Below the pieces are notes generated by a model. The model worked only from the letters and a program-made list of their open reading frames with translations, searched no databases and had not been told where the DNA came from. From Glaciimonas sp. CA11.2 (lineage in GTDB: Bacteria > Pseudomonadota > Gammaproteobacteria > Burkholderiales > Burkholderiaceae_D): a DNA stretch of 64,000 bases. The stretch covers positions 1 to 64,000 of the forward strand of contig NZ_JAVIWL010000002.1 in assembly GCF_034314045.1 (NCBI RefSeq), in the 5' to 3' direction. Numbering within the stretch: the first letter of the stretch is position 1; the number at the start of each line of letters is the position of its first letter. Shown piece by piece: positions 7,389 to 24,379 of this stretch. A program made the translations under genes and the position numbers.

Positions 7389-7484
7389 GAGAGCAGTTAA
7401 AACCGGAGGCAGCCATTCGAGCAGATTTGGCGATATATTTATTGTCTCGCGAACAATCAGGGAGGCAATGATGCGGATGTGTGG
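7389..7484 (+). repeat. Truncated copy of MITE-like element (relative of 20499-20648)
   Basis: The segment begins GAGAGCAGTTAAAACCGGAG and continues with blocks such as GCGATATATTT, TTGTCTC and ATGATGCGG. These align in order with the reverse complement of the 150-bp element at 20499-20648. It is cut off where an IS3-family end begins (near 7486). The second inverted repeat is missing. Confidence 0.6.
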
Positions 7485-14794: not shown

Positions 14795-15634
14795 GTACTT
14801 GTCTCCAGATTTGGAACATTACAAAATAAAGTCTCGGCTAGAGCCATCGGCAGCGATCTCAGTTCAGCGGCCTCCGAATGGCCATCAACATTCCAATAAC
14901 AGCAGCTCCTACAAGTACGAATACGAGCACAAACACCAGTGACTTTGTCGCGTTATTAATCACAAGGTGAAAATTTTCACCAAAGAAATTGTGTATCTCA
15001 AACTAAGGGGTCCCGTTGAATCGGGGCATAAACTGGTCGGCGAATAATATTGCATCCGCGTTATCGGTCGTGTACTGACCCTTGCGGATCACAAACTCGC
15101 CATCGGCACACAGCTAACCGGCGCTGGAGGGCGATTTCGCCTCGAGCATCGGCCGGGTGACCCGCTTAATAGCGCGATAGTCCTGCTCGATCCACCAGGT
15201 GTTTGTAGCTCAACGGACCAACCACGTAACAGCAGATACAGAGCAGAATCACATTGAGCGGAATACCCATCCCTTCAAAGTTGGGCATATTGATCCGTCC
15301 TCACACGGATCAATAGCCGAACACCTAACCAAGTGTATTTTTTACATCTTTTGCAATATTCTATAACAATGCCGTATGGAAATATATCCTTAAATAATTA
15401 TGCCAATACGAAATACTAAAAACGACATTTTTTTCATGATGTCGATTCAAAAAAGGTTGGCTAGTTATATTGGCAGACCAATATCAGCCAAGAAAGGGGA
15501 CTGCATCAGAGTCAAGCTACAGACGACTTGATGCTCAGGAGGCTGGCAAGAATAAATTTAGCCGAATCCATCTGGATTCTATCTATGGCTCGGTGGTGGT
15601 GAGTGATAAGACAGATTAGATTAGATTAGATTAG
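14795..15634. other. Intergenic region with IS6 remnant and (ATTAG)n tract
   Basis: Between the HD-GYP gene and the Tn7-like left end I see only a decayed IS6-family gene (15003-15288) and, at 15614-15634, four tandem copies of the pentamer GATTA ending exactly at the transposon boundary. Nothing else is supported. Confidence 0.5.
15003..15288 (-). pseudogene. IS6-family transposase with large internal deletion
   Basis: The reverse strand encodes an IS6-type start (MPNFEGMGIPLNVILLCICC, then YVVGPLSYKHLV) joined by a deletion of roughly 130 codons and a frame change to an IS6-type C-terminus (EQDYRAIKRVTRPMLEAKS, VIRKGQYTTDNADAILFADQ). An in-frame stop interrupts the C-terminal part. It is clearly dead. 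It is related to, but diverged from, the intact copy at 7853-8545. Confidence 0.75.
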
Positions 15635-15810
15635 CGTAGACGAAAGCAAATTTGTCCAAATTGTGACGGTAAATTTGTCCAAATCCTGATTTTTTCCGAA
15701 GCATCAGAAATTTATCCAATAAATTCAATGCGTTATCGGTTTTAGAAAGTAAATTTGTCCAAAATTAATTTCGCGCATTGCGGAAAGCAAATTCGTCCAT
15801 CTGTTTTAGC
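15635..15810 (+). repeat. Left end of Tn7-like transposon with TnsB-site-like repeats
   Basis: The terminal inverted repeat (15635-15675) is followed by further copies of the short motif AAATTTGTCCAAA: around 15649, 15670, a weaker ATTTATCCAATAAA near 15709, one near 15750, and AAATTCGTCCAT near 15788. Arrays of such 13-14-bp sites are normal at Tn7-like ends and are bound by TnsB. The array stops just before the tniQ stop codon. Confidence 0.7.
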
Positions 15811-15845
15811 TGTTTTTTTGATAAAAATTCACCGAAATGAACAAT

Positions 15846-16475
15846 TCAATGTGCGAAATAATGCAACCGCATGCGCGTGATGGCGACCCGCGCCTTTAAA
15901 TTTAGTGGTGTTCTTTCTAAAAAACGTGGATGACAGGTGCCGTAATAGCTTCGGCAATATCCGCATCGAAATGGCGCATCCAACAGAATGACATTGAGCC
16001 GATATAGTGTTTTGCTGTCGCAGCGAACGCATGCGTTTTGCAAGGCGTTGCCATGTATCGGACAGTGCGTGACCAGCGCTATCTGAGGCACCACACTGTG
16101 ATAGCCGCGGCGCATGCAGCGTGGACAATAGCGAAAGTCGGGGCAACCCAACCCATCTGGCAGCAATGCATTGCGAATCAGCTTCGATGGCAAGCACAGC
16201 ATCTGATGTACGCGCCGGATGTCAACTTCACTGCTACTGGGATTAATTCCCTCATAGGGATCTACCACCGTTCTGGAAATTTGCCCTGCAATGAGATGGC
16301 CAGCGATCAGATTCATCCGCGCAAACTTCCAGAGCATGGATACGATAGATTCCTGCGGATCCAGCCACGTCGAATTAAAGACGTATCCCAGTGCAGGGGT
16401 TAGGGCATGCGTATCGACCAGCATAATCGGATACGCAGTAAACGCGGGAATCTTGATCTCGCCGCGCTCTCGCAC
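15846..16475 (-). CDS. tniQ: TniQ-family target-selection protein (short)
   Basis: TniQ/TnsD-type protein, which links the TnsC ATPase to the insertion target. The N-terminal segment PAFTAYPIMLVDTHALTPAL is weakly TniQ-like. Zinc-ligand clusters follow: RYCPRCMRRGYHS, VTHCPIHGNALQNACVRCDS and FRCGYC. At 209 residues it is shorter than TnsD, close to the small TniQ proteins of some Tn7-like systems. The start is a GTG that overlaps the tnsC stop (TAGTG), so translation is probably coupled. Without a DNA-binding extension it may need another factor to find targets; that is inference. Confidence 0.7.
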   Translation of the reverse strand: MRERGEIKIPAFTAYPIMLVDTHALTPALGYVFNSTWLDPQESIVSMLWKFARMNLIAGHLIAGQISRTVVDPYEGINPSSSEVDIRRVHQMLCLPSKLIRNALLPDGLGCPDFRYCPRCMRRGYHSVVPQIALVTHCPIHGNALQNACVRCDSKTLYRLNVILLDAPFRCGYCRSYYGTCHPRFLERTPLNLKARVAITRMRLHYFAH

Positions 16476-17470
16476 TAAGCCTCCCGCAGCGCCAGTTTAA
16501 GACGACTGGTAGCGATCCTGATTTGGGTATAACCGGAGTGTCGTATTGCTTGTTCCCAGAGCGCAGGCGGTGGCCGATAAGCCGGTGCATCATGAATCGC
16601 TGCGTCCTTAAGGACGATCTCGACGGCGCGGGTAAACGATTCCATCGGAATATCCATCGCCCCGCTGAATCCGGCTTTGTTATGGATGTTCTCGAAGGTT
16701 GTCCAAATTAACTGCGCATCATCAGTGAGGACATAGCCAGCATCCACCGCTTGCTGCAAATAGAATCGGGTAAAACTCCATTCCGAGCCGCGTGGATAGA
16801 AGGTCTGGCCGTATCCCGCCAGGCAGGTGGCCACTTCATTGACATCGCGCACGCCATAAAATGCCAGCTCTTCGACCATCAGACGGGCCACAATTTGCAT
16901 CTTCCCGCTACGCTGGAAATTGGTTTTAATCGACAGCAAATCCTGCTGGCCGACTAGAAATGTGAACAGCTTGATTTCCATGCGATCCAGATGATCGTGA
17001 ATGTCGCGTAACCACTCATATTCGTTTTCATCGAAGCGCTGGGCTTCATCGCAAAACAAGATGACGGTACCGCGCCCGGCCTTGATACAGGCTTCGCGAA
17101 TTTTATTGATCAGGCGTTGCCGCTTGGCAGAATTCGATCCGCCTGACGCATCAGGGTAACCAACGGCTTCCAGCAGATTGGCGAAGAGCGGGCCTTCTGC
17201 ATGGCGCGGCTTATGTTCAGCTTGCACATGATAGGTGGTGATGGTCGGCACTTTTTCAGCGAGTAACAAGCGGATGTATTCAATCGCTTTAGTCTTGCCT
17301 ATTCGCGGTGGACCATAAATTAATGCACCGGTAATGCGGTAGCGTAAACAGCGAGAAATAAGTTCGTAAAACGCCTGGATGGCCGGGGTAGCGATCCGGT
17401 ACTGGCCGGTAGCGAGTGGATGTAATTCCTTGCTGATGGGACGGGTCAGGCGGTTGTTATGGCTAGACAA
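16475..17470 (-). CDS. tnsC: Transposition regulator ATPase (TnsC/TniB family)
   Basis: AAA+ ATPase expected to assemble on target DNA and activate the transposase. Walker A is YGPPRIGKTKAI (about residues 52-63) and Walker B is VILFCDEAQRFDENEYEWL. The arrangement matches TniB/TnsC proteins, including the TFLVGQQDLLSIKTNFQ sensor region. Length (331) is normal. It lies 39 bases downstream of tnsB and overlaps tniQ by one base, consistent with one operon. No disruption was seen. Confidence 0.85.
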   Translation of the reverse strand: MSSHNNRLTRPISKELHPLATGQYRIATPAIQAFYELISRCLRYRITGALIYGPPRIGKTKAIEYIRLLLAEKVPTITTYHVQAEHKPRHAEGPLFANLLEAVGYPDASGGSNSAKRQRLINKIREACIKAGRGTVILFCDEAQRFDENEYEWLRDIHDHLDRMEIKLFTFLVGQQDLLSIKTNFQRSGKMQIVARLMVEELAFYGVRDVNEVATCLAGYGQTFYPRGSEWSFTRFYLQQAVDAGYVLTDDAQLIWTTFENIHNKAGFSGAMDIPMESFTRAVEIVLKDAAIHDAPAYRPPPALWEQAIRHSGYTQIRIATSRLKLALREA

Positions 17471-17509
17471 AGGATCTCTCCTTGATGCAAAAAATCAGCA
17501 TTCGACTTG

Positions 17510-19522
17510 CTAAATACTGGGTCCATATCCACTGCCGATGGTGAGTGGTATCGGGACGATTTTTTTGTTGATGTCGGTCGGTATCGTCGGTGTTGTGGTT
17601 GTTGCTTCACCTAAATTGCATAGAGCCTCAGTTTTGATTGGGGCGCTACCATGCTCGCACGGTGGTCCAGGCGGCGTCGCGGAAGTCGGGGCTTTCGCCA
17701 GTATGCGCATGGTTCTTTCCAGATCACTGGCCGCACGCCGACTGCGCTTGGCTTTGATTTTTTTATCCGCAATAAAATCATCAATAAACACATGATCGAT
17801 TGTGACCTTGAGGCGCTTGTTACCGCGCTTCTTCATGATCTCGCGCCGCAGAGTGATATCGTGGCTGACCTCGCCCCATGCTCCCTGGGCTTTGAGTATG
17901 CCGAGCTCAGACCCATCGGCCAGAAATGCACGCACGGTGCGTAAATCATCGCTGTTGTAATACACGCGTAAATGACTTCCCAACAAAGAGCCGCTGCTGG
18001 CCAGCACCGCGCTGGTATAGCGCACCTGAAACAAATTGATATGCGGACGTGTGCCTTGTTGCAGATAACCGCGCACTGGGCAGCGACGCGCCTGTTGCAT
18101 CAGGCACAGCGTGCGCCGTTTCGCTTCCGGTAACCAGGAGATCATGGCGGCTTTGCCGCGCACGTGATAGGTCATCGCTTCCAGTGGCGTGCGGCCATTT
18201 AAGCCGGAATGCGGCGTGGCATTGTAGGTCGCCAGCGACGCCTCCATCAATTCTTCCAACTCAGCAAGCGACAGGAATAACCGCAGGTCGCCTTTCGCAG
18301 AACTTAATGCACGTCGCACATCGTCCGGCCCGGACCCGGTGTAATAACCGGGCAAGCGTGACGATACCGTGTTGGCGATCGTGCCAAAGAAGCGCTCGAT
18401 ATACGGTCGGTCATCGGGATGGTACGGTGGTCCGGCATCCACGGCACAACCAATAAATTCACAGAGCGCAGCGATGGTTTCATTGGCGAGATTGGCTTTG
18501 GCGTTATCGAGTTTGATCCGTTGCCAGATGGCATAGCCAAGTTCTGGCAACTTCCCCGACGGAAATCCGCCAGCGCCGCCATAGCCCACACCCTGCAAGG
18601 TAAAACTGCGTGGCTGGTGCGGTGTCAATGCTTGCTCGATGGTTTTGATCACATCGTAGCGACTATATTCTCGCGCAATCACCAGGTGATAACCGAGTAC
18701 GGCGCGGGTACACACGTCCAGAATCACCAGCAACCATATGCGTTCGATCTCCAGTTCTTGTTCATAGCCGAGCGGATCGCGAATCACAATTTTTAAGCGC
18801 AGGTCCAGTCGATGCCCATCAAATTCAACTGCCTGGAATGGACGCACAATCGCCGTAGCTGATGCGAGTGAAGTTGGTAAGCCTTTGAGGTGATGCGCAC
18901 CGGCAGCACGCGCAGCAGCACCGAAATTCTTGAGTATTTCTGACTTGACATAGGCAGAGAGGGAGCGAATGCCCATGCGATCAGTATTTAAAGGATATTC
19001 CATTGCGGTGATGCCGGCTCTGCGACATTGCCGTAGGAATGATTCCTGTAATGCGACGATCCCGCTCAAGCGCGTTTTTAAACCCTCATCAGTGCTGATC
19101 TGGTTCAGAACAACAGCATGCTCATCAATCTGTTTGTGTAACCATTGCATGAGTGCCGGATAGCGTTCTAGCAGGGCACTGAACGCGCCCACAAAACCCT
19201 GGCCTGTTACGCTACAACCCGGTGCCAATGCGGCGGTTCGCATATACGATCCGATGCGTTGGTGCTTGAGCAGCCCACGCAAACCAAAGATTCTGCCATC
19301 GTCATCCACGCTCAAACAACGCTGAATCAGATGATAGAGTTGGCGACCACTAATGCCTGTTTGGGCATGGATTTTATGCAGCAATTCCCCACCTGCATAC
19401 AACACGATCGCTTGATGGCGCGCTTGAAATACCTTGCGCTTGTCTTCTGAAAGAGCATTCACATCAATGCTCGACCACGTATCGATATCCATCCCCTGCA
19501 GAGTGTATCGACGAGGAATCAT
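17510..19522 (-). CDS. tnsB: DDE transposase of Tn7-like element (TnsB/TniA family)
   Basis: Mu/Tn7-type transposase that joins transposon ends to target DNA. An N-terminal helix-turn-helix region (LLHKIHAQTGISGRQLYHLI) precedes the rve core. Catalytic acids are visible in FQAVEFDGHRLDL (D), IKLDNAKANLANE (D) and PYIERFFGT (E), followed by the beta-barrel and a C-terminal TnsC-interacting tail. The length of 670 residues fits TnsB. The start ATG is seven bases after the tnsA stop. It should recognise the AAATTTGTCCAAAT sites at the element ends. Confidence 0.88.
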   Translation of the reverse strand: MIPRRYTLQGMDIDTWSSIDVNALSEDKRKVFQARHQAIVLYAGGELLHKIHAQTGISGRQLYHLIQRCLSVDDDGRIFGLRGLLKHQRIGSYMRTAALAPGCSVTGQGFVGAFSALLERYPALMQWLHKQIDEHAVVLNQISTDEGLKTRLSGIVALQESFLRQCRRAGITAMEYPLNTDRMGIRSLSAYVKSEILKNFGAAARAAGAHHLKGLPTSLASATAIVRPFQAVEFDGHRLDLRLKIVIRDPLGYEQELEIERIWLLVILDVCTRAVLGYHLVIAREYSRYDVIKTIEQALTPHQPRSFTLQGVGYGGAGGFPSGKLPELGYAIWQRIKLDNAKANLANETIAALCEFIGCAVDAGPPYHPDDRPYIERFFGTIANTVSSRLPGYYTGSGPDDVRRALSSAKGDLRLFLSLAELEELMEASLATYNATPHSGLNGRTPLEAMTYHVRGKAAMISWLPEAKRRTLCLMQQARRCPVRGYLQQGTRPHINLFQVRYTSAVLASSGSLLGSHLRVYYNSDDLRTVRAFLADGSELGILKAQGAWGEVSHDITLRREIMKKRGNKRLKVTIDHVFIDDFIADKKIKAKRSRRAASDLERTMRILAKAPTSATPPGPPCEHGSAPIKTEALCNLGEATTTTPTIPTDINKKIVPIPLTIGSGYGPSI

Positions 19523-19529
19523 AGGAAAC

Positions 19530-20138
19530 TCACACAGGTTCGAAGGGCGTCAAAAATGATAACGGTTCCAGCATTAACTGCGGTGCTGTTAATCGCCCTT
19601 GATGCAATAAGTGATACACGGTTGCACGCACCAAGGTCGGGTCACCCACCACTAATTCACGTTCTATGCGGGACAACTGCATCGGTTCCGTTACACACCG
19701 CAGTACCGAACGGATGAGCGGTTCTGTAATCAATCGCTGACACGAAACGATGCTCACTATCATCAACTCCCAGTTGCTAACCCACATCCGTGCTGCAGCG
19801 AGTTCCGCCAACGGAATTGCACGCACTACTACGCTGGTATCACCGACCATCACCGATGAAGATGCATGCTCTTCGCCAACGATCAGAAACATTTCAGCAT
19901 CGGCTTGACGCACCCAATAATCAGCGACGCGATACTTGCCAGCAAAATCGATCATCGCAGGTCGCTCGCAAAACGTCTGCACGACAGGATCGGATTCCAG
20001 ACGCAACCATTGTTTAAAGGCATGCTCGCCAAAACACTGTAAGCGGCGACCCAGTTTCGGGCTGCACGCTTCGATCAAACGTTCGTCACGCGACCTTTTT
20101 GATAACATCGCAGAGCGATATCGCGAAAAATTGTCCAT
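19530..20138 (-). CDS. tnsA: TnsA-like endonuclease, possibly catalytically altered
   Basis: First gene of the transposition operon. The N-terminal half resembles the TnsA endonuclease domain: FGEHAFKQWLRLESDPVVQT, FCERPAMIDFAGKYRVADYW, with D in ADYWV. TnsA cuts the 5' strands so that transposition is cut-and-paste. In classical TnsA the D is followed about 16 residues later by Q/E-x-K. Here the corresponding segment reads FLIVGEEHASS, without the lysine. The C-terminal half (about 110-202) looks like a winged-helix/TnsC-binding domain. If the nuclease is dead, the element would form cointegrates. Family assignment is moderately sure, loss of activity is a guess. Confidence 0.65.
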   Translation of the reverse strand: MDNFSRYRSAMLSKRSRDERLIEACSPKLGRRLQCFGEHAFKQWLRLESDPVVQTFCERPAMIDFAGKYRVADYWVRQADAEMFLIVGEEHASSSVMVGDTSVVVRAIPLAELAAARMWVSNWELMIVSIVSCQRLITEPLIRSVLRCVTEPMQLSRIERELVVGDPTLVRATVYHLLHQGRLTAPQLMLEPLSFLTPFEPV

Positions 20139-20169
20139 GAATTCAACAGCATAGAATACTTTTTAGGCT

Positions 20170-20497
20170 TTTCAAGCTGCGTAAGGACAGATTTACTTTC
20201 TCATGCTGCCAAAGGACAAATTTGCCCACACAATTTAAAAAGTAAATTTGTCCAAATGTGTGAGTACTCTCCTATGAAAGCAGGGTGAAAAATTTGGACG
20301 AATTTACTGTTGTCTACGCAGGAGGACTGGTAAAAAGGCTGGGGTTTTAGGGAGCCGCTCGGCGTAAGCCCGTCCAAAAATTACGTTATTTGTGTTGAAT
20401 ACTGCAGCCCTTTTAACAGCCCCCTTTCTGATGCTTAAAAAACCATGATTTGGATGAATTTACCGTCACAATTTGGACAAATTTGCTTTCGTCTACG
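20170..20497 (-). repeat. Right end of Tn7-like transposon, with two nested terminus-like sequences
   Basis: Reading inward from 20497, the perfect inverted repeat (20457-20497) is followed by a 138-bp spacer. A second terminus-like sequence then begins at 20318 (CGTAGACAACAGTAAATTCG) and runs into further TTTGTCC motifs (near 20200-20260). Only the outer one matches the left end perfectly. The inner one shares CGTAGAC and TAAATTCGTCCAAAT. Confidence 0.65.
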
Positions 20498-20498
20498 A

Positions 20499-20648
20499 GA
20501 GTCCAGTTAAAACCGGAGGCAGTCGCCATGACCATCGTCAATTCATGCCTCGATGATCGCCCGCATGACAATCTCCACAGTGGATCGTGAGGCAACAAAT
20601 ATATCGCTAAAGCTTTTTTATCGGCTGCCTCCGGTTTTAACTGCACTC
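20499..20648. mobile_element. 150-bp MITE-like element with 24-bp terminal inverted repeats
   Basis: The ends are inverted copies of GAG-T-NCAGTTAAAACCGGAGGCAG (23 of 24 positions identical), enclosing about 100 bp with no gene. A truncated relative occurs at 7389-7484, next to another mobile element. Small size, terminal repeats, lack of coding capacity and more than one copy fit a non-autonomous transposable element. The left tip touches the Tn7-like right end (20497). No clear target duplication is seen. Confidence 0.65.
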
Positions 20649-20654
20649 TATAAA

Positions 20655-21151: not shown

Positions 21152-21565
21152 TTAGTGAACCCAATCTTCATAAGACAGACCAGGAACGCGACTAAATTCA
21201 CGCACATTGTTTGTGACCAGCACACAATCCGCAGCAATCGCGTGACCGGCTATAGCGGTATCATTTTCGCCGATTACGGATCCTGCCTTGGTGAGTTGAA
21301 TCTTCACCTCTACCGTCGTGTCAACAGCGGCCTGGTCCCACGGCAAGATCTCATCGAGACGCTTCACGAATTCGTCAACCAGCGTTTTATGCTTGGGCGA
21401 TGCCTTCTTGCCGATTTGCCCGTAACGCATTTCGGCGTAGGTAATGGCAGAAATGACGATCCGATTATTTTGCGCAACCTCTTCGGCTAATCGCTGCAAA
21501 ACAGACACTGGGTGCTCGCGCATGATAAAAGAGCAAATGCAGGTATCCAGCATGAACGTGGTCAC
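21152..21565 (-). CDS. vapC: VapC-type PIN-domain ribonuclease toxin
   Basis: PIN-domain toxin of a type II toxin-antitoxin pair; VapC enzymes cleave tRNA or rRNA. The acidic site is visible: MLDTCICS at the N-terminus (D6), SAITYAEMRYG (E), and GENDTAIAGHAIAADCVLVTNN with the clustered acids. Length (137) is normal. Its start overlaps the vapB stop by four bases (ATGA), as is usual for the operon. All catalytic acids are present, so it is probably active. Confidence 0.9.
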   Translation of the reverse strand: MTTFMLDTCICSFIMREHPVSVLQRLAEEVAQNNRIVISAITYAEMRYGQIGKKASPKHKTLVDEFVKRLDEILPWDQAAVDTTVEVKIQLTKAGSVIGENDTAIAGHAIAADCVLVTNNVREFSRVPGLSYEDWVH

Positions 21566-21792
21566 AGATTAAACCTACCTTCATCGCTAATAATGCTCTG
21601 ACGTTCTTGCAGAAAGTCCACATCTGCCTTGGGCAATTCAACCAGCGATAGCCAACTCGGGCGCACAGGGCGAAGAGTGATGGTGTCACCGCTGCGCGTA
21701 ATTTCCAGCTCCCCTACATTCTCGTAAGACATGTCCGTGGGGAGGCGAATTGCTTGATTCTTACCGTTTTTGAAAATGGAGACAGTACGCAT
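21562..21792 (-). CDS. vapB: VapB-type antitoxin (AbrB/SpoVT fold)
   Basis: The short protein (76 aa) begins with a swapped-hairpin DNA-binding domain, MRTVSIFKNGKNQAIRLPTD, typical of VapB. The C-terminal tail (VDFLQERQSIISDEGRFNL) should wrap the toxin. TAGGAGTGAG precedes the ATG. The upstream AT-rich region holds ACATATG and GCATATGC half-sites that may be the autoregulatory operator. Translationally coupled to vapC. Confidence 0.9.
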   Translation of the reverse strand: MRTVSIFKNGKNQAIRLPTDMSYENVGELEITRSGDTITLRPVRPSWLSLVELPKADVDFLQERQSIISDEGRFNL

Positions 21793-22765: not shown

Positions 22766-23197
22766 GGCAACTCCTTATTCTGAAGCAGGTAGCAGCGTGC
22801 TGACACGCTATCCCTAAAGTGCGACTGGCCACCGACCAAATTGGTTTTATTCAGATCCTCGACCATGGCCATAACGTTTGTCTTGCCATTTTCGCAAGAA
22901 GCCTGGTTGGCGAACTGCTGCATAGAAATTTGTGGATCTCACGAATTTCCGCCCAAGTACGTTGCAACGATCAGAACCAGGCATTTTGGCTTCTCCAGAG
23001 GAGGGAAAACGCAGTTTAAGGGCGCCAGCGGCTACATTATGGCATTAATCGCGCCATTAGTAAAAATAATGACGTCATAATAAAATCATAATTATGACGT
23101 TAATAGTCTCTCATTCGACATTATGTTATATATTGTCGAATTAGGTGGCGGAGTGATAAAATGCCTGTATGGAGACTTTATATAGTGTGGAACATTG
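22766..23197. other. Divergent intergenic region between kfrA and integrase
   Basis: No gene is supported. The right part (about 23030-23195) is AT-rich and carries the inverted repeat listed separately at 23068-23104. It probably holds the promoters of kfrA and of the tyrosine recombinase. Confidence 0.5.
23068..23104. promoter_or_regulatory. Inverted repeat, candidate operator
   Basis: ACGTCATAAT and ATTATGACGT (23072-23081 and 23091-23100) form a perfect 10-bp inverted repeat separated by nine bases, and the left arm contains the palindrome TGACGTCA. It sits between kfrA and the divergent integrase gene, as an autoregulatory site would. Confidence 0.55.
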
Positions 23198-24379
23198 ATG
23201 ATTACCTTTGACCTGATCGATCTGACACCCGCGCCAGGACTGGCGCCGCCGGTGTTGGACGACACCTCAGAAAAAAATGAAATGTTCCACGGGCCGGCGC
23301 CGGACGCGATTACCGCGGCCCGTACCGATGCCGAAATCGCCAAAGAATTCCTGGGGCGTGGCGAGTTGTCGGCCGCCAGTCTGGCCAATACTCAGAAAGA
23401 ACTGTTCCGCTTTCTGACCTGGTGTCGGGAAGAGGTCAATAAGCCGCTGCGGGCGTTGCGTGTGGCCGATCTGAACGCTTATAAAGCATTTTTGAAACAC
23501 CCTCCTCCCGACTGGGTGTCGACGACCCGCTGGCCGCGCAGCGACGCGCGCTACCGGCCGTTTAGCGGGCAGCTGGCGGACGGCTCACGGCGCCAGGCGT
23601 TAGTCGCCGTCAAGGGCTTGCTGGCCTACGCCGAGAAAAGCGGCTACCTGCGGCGTGACCCCGGAGCGCTGGTCAAAAACATCAAGGCGCAGTCTGGCGC
23701 AAGGATTACCCGGTATTTGCACCAGGAGGCCATTGCGCTCGCACTGGCGACGATTGCGGCCCGGGTGCCTGGCTGTGAGTCGGAAATCAAACGGCAAGCG
23801 CTGGATCGCTTCCTGCTGACCGCTTACGCCTCAACTGGTGCACGGCTCTCGGAAATCGTTGGAGCGACGATGGGGGCGATCTATAACGAAGGGGATGGAC
23901 GCTGGTGGCTGGATGTCGTTGGAAAAGGTAACAAATTGCGCCGGCTGCCGGTGTCAATCGGATTGCTGGAGGTGTTCAGGGCGTATCGAGTGGCATTTGG
24001 GCTGACGCCGCAGACTAACCGGACCGATGCGACGCCGCTGGTGTTATCGATCAGGCGCAAAGATTTGTCTGGTGTGACGAACGAGACTGCCGGTAATGCA
24101 TTGAAGGGGATTTTTGCTGAGGCGGCAAACGCCGCTGAAGAGGATGGGGATCTTGATACCGCTGCAACGCTGAGAAACGCGTCGGCGCACTGGTTGCGGC
24201 ACAGCATGTTGACTAATCACGCGAATAACGGGGTGCAGTTAAAGACCCTGCAGGACACCGCAGGGCATGCGAATATTGCGACCACGGCGCGCTATCTGCA
24301 CAAAAGTGATCACGAGCGGCATGATGAGATCATGATCTCAACGAACAATCAGACTGCGATCCCAGAGGTTAAAAAATAA
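23198..24379 (+). CDS. Tyrosine site-specific recombinase/integrase
   Basis: Phage-integrase family recombinase. A core-binding SAM-like domain (about 45-150) precedes the catalytic domain, which shows Arg in STGARLSEIVG, Lys in GKGNKLRRLPV, HWLRHSMLTNH (His-x-x-Arg), the later His in GHANIATT and Tyr in ARYLHKSD. All are intact. The ATG at 23198 follows a TTG at 23195, and the start could be either. It is divergent from kfrA and probably acts in plasmid dimer resolution or integration of a gene cassette; no attachment site was identified. Confidence 0.88.
   Translation: MITFDLIDLTPAPGLAPPVLDDTSEKNEMFHGPAPDAITAARTDAEIAKEFLGRGELSAASLANTQKELFRFLTWCREEVNKPLRALRVADLNAYKAFLKHPPPDWVSTTRWPRSDARYRPFSGQLADGSRRQALVAVKGLLAYAEKSGYLRRDPGALVKNIKAQSGARITRYLHQEAIALALATIAARVPGCESEIKRQALDRFLLTAYASTGARLSEIVGATMGAIYNEGDGRWWLDVVGKGNKLRRLPVSIGLLEVFRAYRVAFGLTPQTNRTDATPLVLSIRRKDLSGVTNETAGNALKGIFAEAANAAEEDGDLDTAATLRNASAHWLRHSMLTNHANNGVQLKTLQDTAGHANIATTARYLHKSDHERHDEIMISTNNQTAIPEVKK

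Follow-up and report, generated by a model that had tools for sequence, protein, structure and literature searches.

A compact Tn7-like transposon of Glaciimonas that keeps a TnsA-like protein without its active site

We analyzed a window of 64,000 nt from Glaciimonas sp. CA11.2 (contig NZ_JAVIWL010000002.1, positions 1 to 64,000), in which a small Tn7-like transposon spans positions 15635-20318 (4,684 bp). This site lies on the second contig (123,406 bp) of a two-contig genome. Sequence comparisons indicate that the element is a real, mobile and cargo-free Tn7-like transposon, and that the chief surprise is not its size but a TnsA that has been kept without its active site, together with junctions that look replicative. 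In Tn7, TnsA makes transposition cut-and-paste. The best reading of the present element, to which we assign a probability of about 0.66, is copy-in (replicative) transposition that would usually go unresolved and cause rearrangements, the dead TnsA being kept. The original prediction, made from the sequence alone, had described a Tn7-like TnsABC-TniQ element with four genes, no cargo and arrays of TTTGTCC-type sites at both ends. These points held: the four genes are supported by open reading frames (ORFs) and by domain and profile matches, the ORF list contains no further ORF of at least 200 aa inside the element, and repeated TTTGTCC-type sites are present on both sides, with arrays of TnsB-type repeats (binding predicted) at both ends. 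No resolvase ORF was found in the ORF list for the element. The same prediction overlooked the lost nuclease residues of the TnsA-like protein and the missing target duplications of the copies.

The TnsA-like protein and its three partners

All four genes lie on the minus strand between 15846 and 20138. The TnsA-like protein is, on profile evidence, a true TnsA homologue: compared with the intact TnsA family using hhalign, it matched with a probability of 98.3 (E = 1.8e-14) over 167 columns. None of 40 TnsA-like homologues gave a meaningful Pfam match, and the NCBIfam TnsA-like model matched the window protein at 1.3e-5, far under its cut-off. In the intact outgroup TnsA family, E36, D73, E87 and K89 are invariant (30/30); the active site is assigned by the numbering of Tn7 TnsA. 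Not one of the 142 homologues of the window's protein has a complete E-D-K triad: 1 retains the first Glu, 139 the Asp and 1 the Lys. This census left out L036, L037, L047 and proteins of at most 150 aa (P0003 and P0120), and L043-L046 were counted apart. The ratio of nonsynonymous to synonymous substitution rates (dN/dS) of tnsA was 0.13-0.29 in all eight pairs compared (pairs share members), a sign of purifying selection. Literature searches limited to open-licence papers gave no description of a natural nuclease-dead TnsA family, and a conserved nuclease-dead TnsA is what looks new here.

Relatives with an intact TnsA (CP079755 and Bacillus-type proteins) share the four-gene order of the window's element and have a TnsC 35% identical to its own, whereas their E-D-K residues are invariant and the TniQ of CP079755 has 506 aa. 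The CP079755 locus (L046) comes from a record labelled Klebsiella grimontii; its TnsA shares 90-95% identity with Bacillus proteins, and this record may hold foreign sequence. Among Oxalobacteraceae relatives with a TnsC identity of 37-48% and a longer TniQ (L140-L147), the TnsA starts look degenerate by eye; judging from these loci, the loss of the triad may reach beyond the family of the window's element.

The motifs of TnsB and TnsC are, judged by residue conservation, intact. Residues D235, D339 and E376 of TnsB, presumably the catalytic ones, are invariant in 14 of 14 proteins, as are the Walker-type residues K59, T60 and D141 of TnsC, with E142 nearly so. The best solved relatives of TnsB are chains of the ShCAST type (E = 7e-11), that is, of a type V-K CRISPR-associated transposon (CAST); TnsC gave no informative match to solved structures. 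TniQ also matches ShCAST-type chains best (155-179 aa; E = 5.5e-7), and the view that it has no DNA-binding extension was upheld. PF06527 was found in 28 of 40 TniQ homologues at E ≤ 0.1, and its match to the window's TniQ (E = 0.016) is under the curated cut-off. This protein is 98% identical to one of Glaciimonas sp. GNP009. In relatives with a TnsC identity of 35-48%, TniQ reaches 387-510 aa (444-539 aa for one ORF, depending on the choice of start), so that the short TniQ marks the family of the window's element.

Ends of the element and target junctions

The original prediction bounded the element by 41-bp perfect inverted repeats at 15635 and 20497 (about 4.9 kb). The repeats exist: 15635-15695 and 20437-20497 form an inverted repeat of 61 nt with 93% identity whose first 41 nt are identical, and this is not due to chance. 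The right-hand copy is, however, a relic of a left end and not a terminus. This outer repeat is the left end reversed, matching it over 73-76 nt, and is therefore an inverted left-end copy lying outside the element; the 106 nt that precede it have no match among the fetched loci. A second end-like sequence stops at 20318, which places it 181 bp upstream of where tnsA begins. Among the 45 rows of our end finder with a called right end (RE), 41 place it 175-190 bp upstream of tnsA, and we therefore put that of the window's element at 20318. The exceptions are L132 and L133 (414 bp), L139 (336 bp) and, because the finder took the higher-scoring outer copy there, the window (360 bp); the inner end of the window's element was chosen on family geometry. 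We give almost no credence to an element that extends to 20497. The outer repeat is longer and scores above the inner end, and the use of a pair of left ends is conceivable in principle, but the family geometry, the left-end character of the outer copy with its unmatched preceding 106 nt, and the length of two copies in Paraburkholderia sp. PGU19 (4,681 bp, against 4,684 bp with the inner end) speak against it. With the inner right end, 24 of the first 28 nt of the two termini agree.

Across the family, the end finder returned 68 rows (66 loci), 26 of them with both ends. After removal of duplicates, of two left-end (LE) calls (L006, 81 bp from tniQ, and L020, 88 bp) and of two RE calls (L122 and L139), we retained 20 distinct elements and 67 flanks; the RE of the window was set by hand to the inner end for both counts. 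The finder scanned the 420 bp preceding tnsA and the 480 bp following tniQ and needed CGT, so that cargo-bearing copies or copies with other termini could not be among the 20. Target site duplications (TSDs) around the ends of relatives, which the original prediction had suggested seeking, did not appear: none of the 20 distinct elements presents a TSD of 3-12 nt, matches of 2 nt occur in 3 of 20 (1.7 expected), and three internally deleted derivatives that keep both ends (about 0.72, 1.97 and 2.16 kb) show none by eye. The pentamers outside the two ends share a bias, with an outward G4 in 21 of 34 RE and 20 of 33 LE flanks (41/67; p = 3e-8) and, for both ends pooled, W3 in 47/67 (p = 3e-6) and C2 in 29/67 (p = 0.01). 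Because the bias is the same at both ends, each junction has the look of a strand-transfer site although the two do not form a pair, and because it is retained, the flanks have not merely decayed.

Tyrosine recombinase genes recur at these junctions. Five of the 67 flanks start inside such a gene (L005, L009, L024, L033 and L121), with the C-terminal part reading outward in all of them. Where both ends are known, the C-terminal part lies at the RE (4/4), and the same four elements have no other half of the recombinase in the 1.5 kb next to the LE. The enrichment is significant relative to the other flanks (p = 3e-5) and is not when the same genes serve as background (p = 0.13). An AT-rich target preference as in V-K CAST was not seen (63 flanks, 0-50 versus 400-1200 nt; p = 0.38).

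One target site was found split. Paraburkholderia sp. PGU19 carries identical copies on plasmids p1 and p3, which terminate exactly at CGTAG... and ...GACG. The left flank on p1 (...gtgctcgt) and the right flank on p3 (ctcgttgaat...) have CTCGT in common and, joined with the repeat removed, align through the junction to P. terrae pPT365 (77%, 291 columns). Since the two flanks are contiguous in pPT365, the halves of one ancestral site now sit on different replicons, and each of them adjoins a copy and has the same 5 bp. The other two PGU19 flanks (gcatc and tcaat) mismatch each other and are not contiguous in the relative tested. Copies were also found inserted into one another: in genome G1105 a complete element has its left end directly against tnsB of a second copy, and in Undibacterium seohonense a right end abuts tnsB of another copy near codon 490. 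The left-end relic next to the window's element may have arisen in a similarly disorderly way.

Replicative transposition and competing explanations

In copy-in transposition, TnsB, with its DDE residues, would bind the repeats at both ends and join the 3' ends to target DNA, while TnsC and the short TniQ would license the target. The TnsA-like protein would be unable to cut the 5' strands and is most likely kept as a structural partner of TnsB and TnsC. With the 5' strands uncut, the donor would stay unexcised and the joined product would be replicated. As the window's element has no resolvase, the products would remain cointegrates, deletions, inversions or replicon splits, and each resulting copy would carry one old and one new junction.

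A conservative excision and insertion, in which the 5' strands would be cut by a nuclease of the host or of another source and the duplications would later disappear through recombination or deletion, is in our judgment unlikely. Plasmids recombine freely, many copies of the family are old and rearranged, solo ends and deleted derivatives occur frequently, and the PGU19 pair could be imitated by two simple insertions that then recombined. Such insertions would, however, need the second pair of flanks to match, and gcatc and tcaat differ, whereas replicative transposition gives the PGU19 arrangement directly. Near-identical young copies (L008, L015, L114 and L115, at 92-99%) are among those without a TSD, and the loss of the triad throughout the 142 homologues also speaks against conservative insertion. 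The missing triad and the solo-end relic alongside the element would fit a degraded, immobile remnant whose TnsA has simply decayed. This is very improbable, given that the reading frames of all four genes are open and show purifying selection in related copies, that near-identical copies occupy different sites and that all the homologues have the loss in common.

Several points weigh against copy-in transposition. The stretch of TnsA homology is short, so that the assignment of residues depends on the alignment. With 0/20, a TSD frequency of 20% among copies is ruled out (P = 0.012) but one of 10% is not (P = 0.12); later deletion or recombination could also remove duplications. The RE pentamer equals the LE pentamer in 2 of 1,122 comparisons across all element pairs, close to the 1.1 expected by chance. 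The split target was found only once, and the other same-genome pair with 99% identity (L114/L115) has no reciprocal pentamer. Some members of the family have a tyrosine recombinase beside tniQ, and the absence of a resolvase is a statement about the window's element only.

More tentatively, and at rather less than even odds, this Tn7-like lineage may have made TnsA non-catalytic, with selection keeping it, and may act as a copy-in rearrangement engine whose moves delete, invert, fuse or split DNA, mostly of plasmids and often in tyrosine recombinase genes. A lineage that keeps TnsA without an active site would separate the structural role of TnsA from cutting, and it raises the question of what a dead TnsA does. 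The element also offers a compact four-gene system for studying target choice by a short TniQ without CRISPR, and its family may be behind plasmid deletions and replicon splits.

Known systems, family members and neighbouring sequence

The window's element presents a DDE TnsB with three acidic residues, an AAA+ TnsC with an adjacent TniQ, and repeat arrays at both ends, as expected of Tn7-like elements; a catalytically competent TnsA, found in Tn7 proper and missing in some branches, is lacking. Tn7 differs by its active TnsA, its cargo and its att-site and TnsE pathways. It also makes a 5-bp duplication; in the family of the window's element, 0 of 20 single copies show one, and the two PGU19 copies that split one site have the same 5 bp beside them. 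The termini of Tn7 are TGT...ACA, and those of the window's element are CGT...ACG. Tn5469 has a size near 4.9 kb and a 5-bp duplication. PMC11406308 describes Tn5469 of Fremyella diplosiphon as a Tn7-like element that is free of cargo, has a single TniQ and shows no evident target specificity. The window's element likewise consists of core genes only with one TniQ, a likeness to Tn5469 as described, not as sequenced. PMC8649781 reports cargo in 96% of 6,549 Tn7-like elements, so that 4% are without it. Most elements do carry cargo, as the original prediction assumed, but cargo-lessness alone is not new.

The type V-K CAST, according to PMC11406308, functions without TnsA activity or a resolvase and forms cointegrates. 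Its ShCAST representative provides the nearest solved TniQ and TnsB, but type V-K CAST relies on Cas12k and a guide RNA and has no TnsA gene, whereas the window's element has no Cas12k or CRISPR and has a TnsA-like gene. The Tn5053/Tn402 family, which targets recombination sites according to the same paper (PMC11406308), resembles the element in its TniABQ-like core, plasmid habitat and, on the copy-in reading, replicative pathway; it differs in having no TnsA and in possessing a TniR resolvase and a res site. Tn6049 and Tn6048 of Cupriavidus were rejected as a named match, these being elements of 3.5 and 10.4 kb with other genes according to PMC2864759.

The element belongs to an unnamed Tn7-like family of Burkholderiaceae and Oxalobacteraceae. 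Among plasmids, 46 records contain a TnsC relative at E ≤ 1e-20, 25 of these at 60-80% identity. TnsC was found in 37 of 398 Burkholderiaceae genomes (E ≤ 1e-100), in 2 of 399 genomes sampled across the order and in 24 of 392 Oxalobacteraceae genomes (E ≤ 1e-60), the window's own included; six Oxalobacteraceae genomes besides it match at 66% or more. Of five genomes of the same genus, only the window's own gave a full match. In genomes of at most 10 contigs with a TnsC identity of at least 61%, TnsC lies off contig C1, assumed to be the chromosome, in 11 of 12.

Of the 20 delimited copies, 19 have no cargo and span 4,603-4,720 bp, and the last (L014) contains an IS3 gene and reaches 5,933 bp. 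In Paraburkholderia, one copy shares 92-94% identity along its full length with three others; the sequences around them are dissimilar. A wider look revealed an IS402-containing copy of 5,586 bp (L010), members without a near left end, and an end-like sequence giving a possible 9,657-bp copy (L025). The flanks of L025 show weak similarity to two parts of one recombinase. Their pentamers differ, however (AAGGG and TCGGC), and only one side can be aligned at the DNA level; L025 was not accepted as a simple insertion. In L022/L037, L030/L031 and L110, tniQ is followed by a gene for a tyrosine recombinase of 491-568 aa. The block common to L022 and L037 extends from the right end through this gene, and L022 and L031 have the module in opposite orientations. 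Relatives of this recombinase present DUF3701 and Phage_integrase domains. Sister elements on three Robbsia plasmids also carry this recombinase, followed by a helicase gene in two. Being cargo-free and resolvase-free thus applies to the window's element and the 20 delimited copies, not to the entire family. In 12 relatives with more distant proteins, a convincing pair of inverted end repeats was found only in L141, without a TSD.

Table 1. Coordinates of the element, its ends and associated features (window positions unless a locus is named)
Feature	Position	Strand	Evidence or remark
Pentamer outside LE	15630..15634		ATTAG; differs from RE pentamer
Left end (LE, tniQ side)	15635..15806		Terminal CGTAG and four TnsB-type repeats; repeat family D1; position relative to tniQ agrees with relatives
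LE TnsB-type repeats	15638-15660, 15661-15683, 15741-15763, 15779-15801		
TniQ-like protein, short form, 209 aa	15846..16475	-	ORF; PF06527; ShCAST-type TniQ profile match
TnsC-like AAA+ ATPase, 331 aa	16475..17470	-	PF13401 (2.3e-12), PF05621 TniB (2e-5)
TnsB-like DDE transposase, 670 aa	17510..19522	-	PF13683; ShCAST-type TnsB profile match
TnsA-like protein, catalytic residues lost, 202 aa	19530..20138	-	Profile match (hhalign) with intact TnsA family
Right end (RE, tnsA side)	20185..20318		TnsB-type repeats 20185-20201, 20214-20236, 20234-20256, 20291-20318
Pentamer outside RE	20319..20323		CAGGA
Inverted left-end relic, outside element	20425..20497	-	73 nt, 91% to 15635-15710
Recombinase module after tniQ	L022 7629-9384; L031 7689-9395; L110 7750-9225		

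Several minor observations concern relatives and neighbouring sequence. The outer edge of the recombinase module of L022/L037 is a palindrome (CGATAAG-N4-CTTATCG) like a recombinase site. Three short derivatives with internal deletions, similar to miniature inverted-repeat transposable elements (L192, L193 and L194, in G1042 and G1031), have one deletion junction in common, at which about 275 bp of the RE is joined to the LE. In a Cupriavidus locus (L013 8183-13388), tnsB is split by three consecutive large genes, two of them annotated as integrases, without a Pfam match; we take this trio to resemble a recombinase-in-trio element. In the window, ATTAG is repeated four times in tandem at 15615-15634, abutting the left end, with a unit length equal to that of a Tn7-type target duplication. 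A 152-nt stretch with 28-nt inverted arms (20498-20649) begins exactly at the outer left-end relic, and its right half has an 81% relative at 7389-7452. Two small genes at 21152-21792 (137 and 76 aa) resemble by eye a VapBC-type toxin-antitoxin pair. Finally, a tyrosine recombinase at 23195-24379 (Phage_integrase, 2.8e-17) is 29-34% identical to the recombinases beside the element's relatives.

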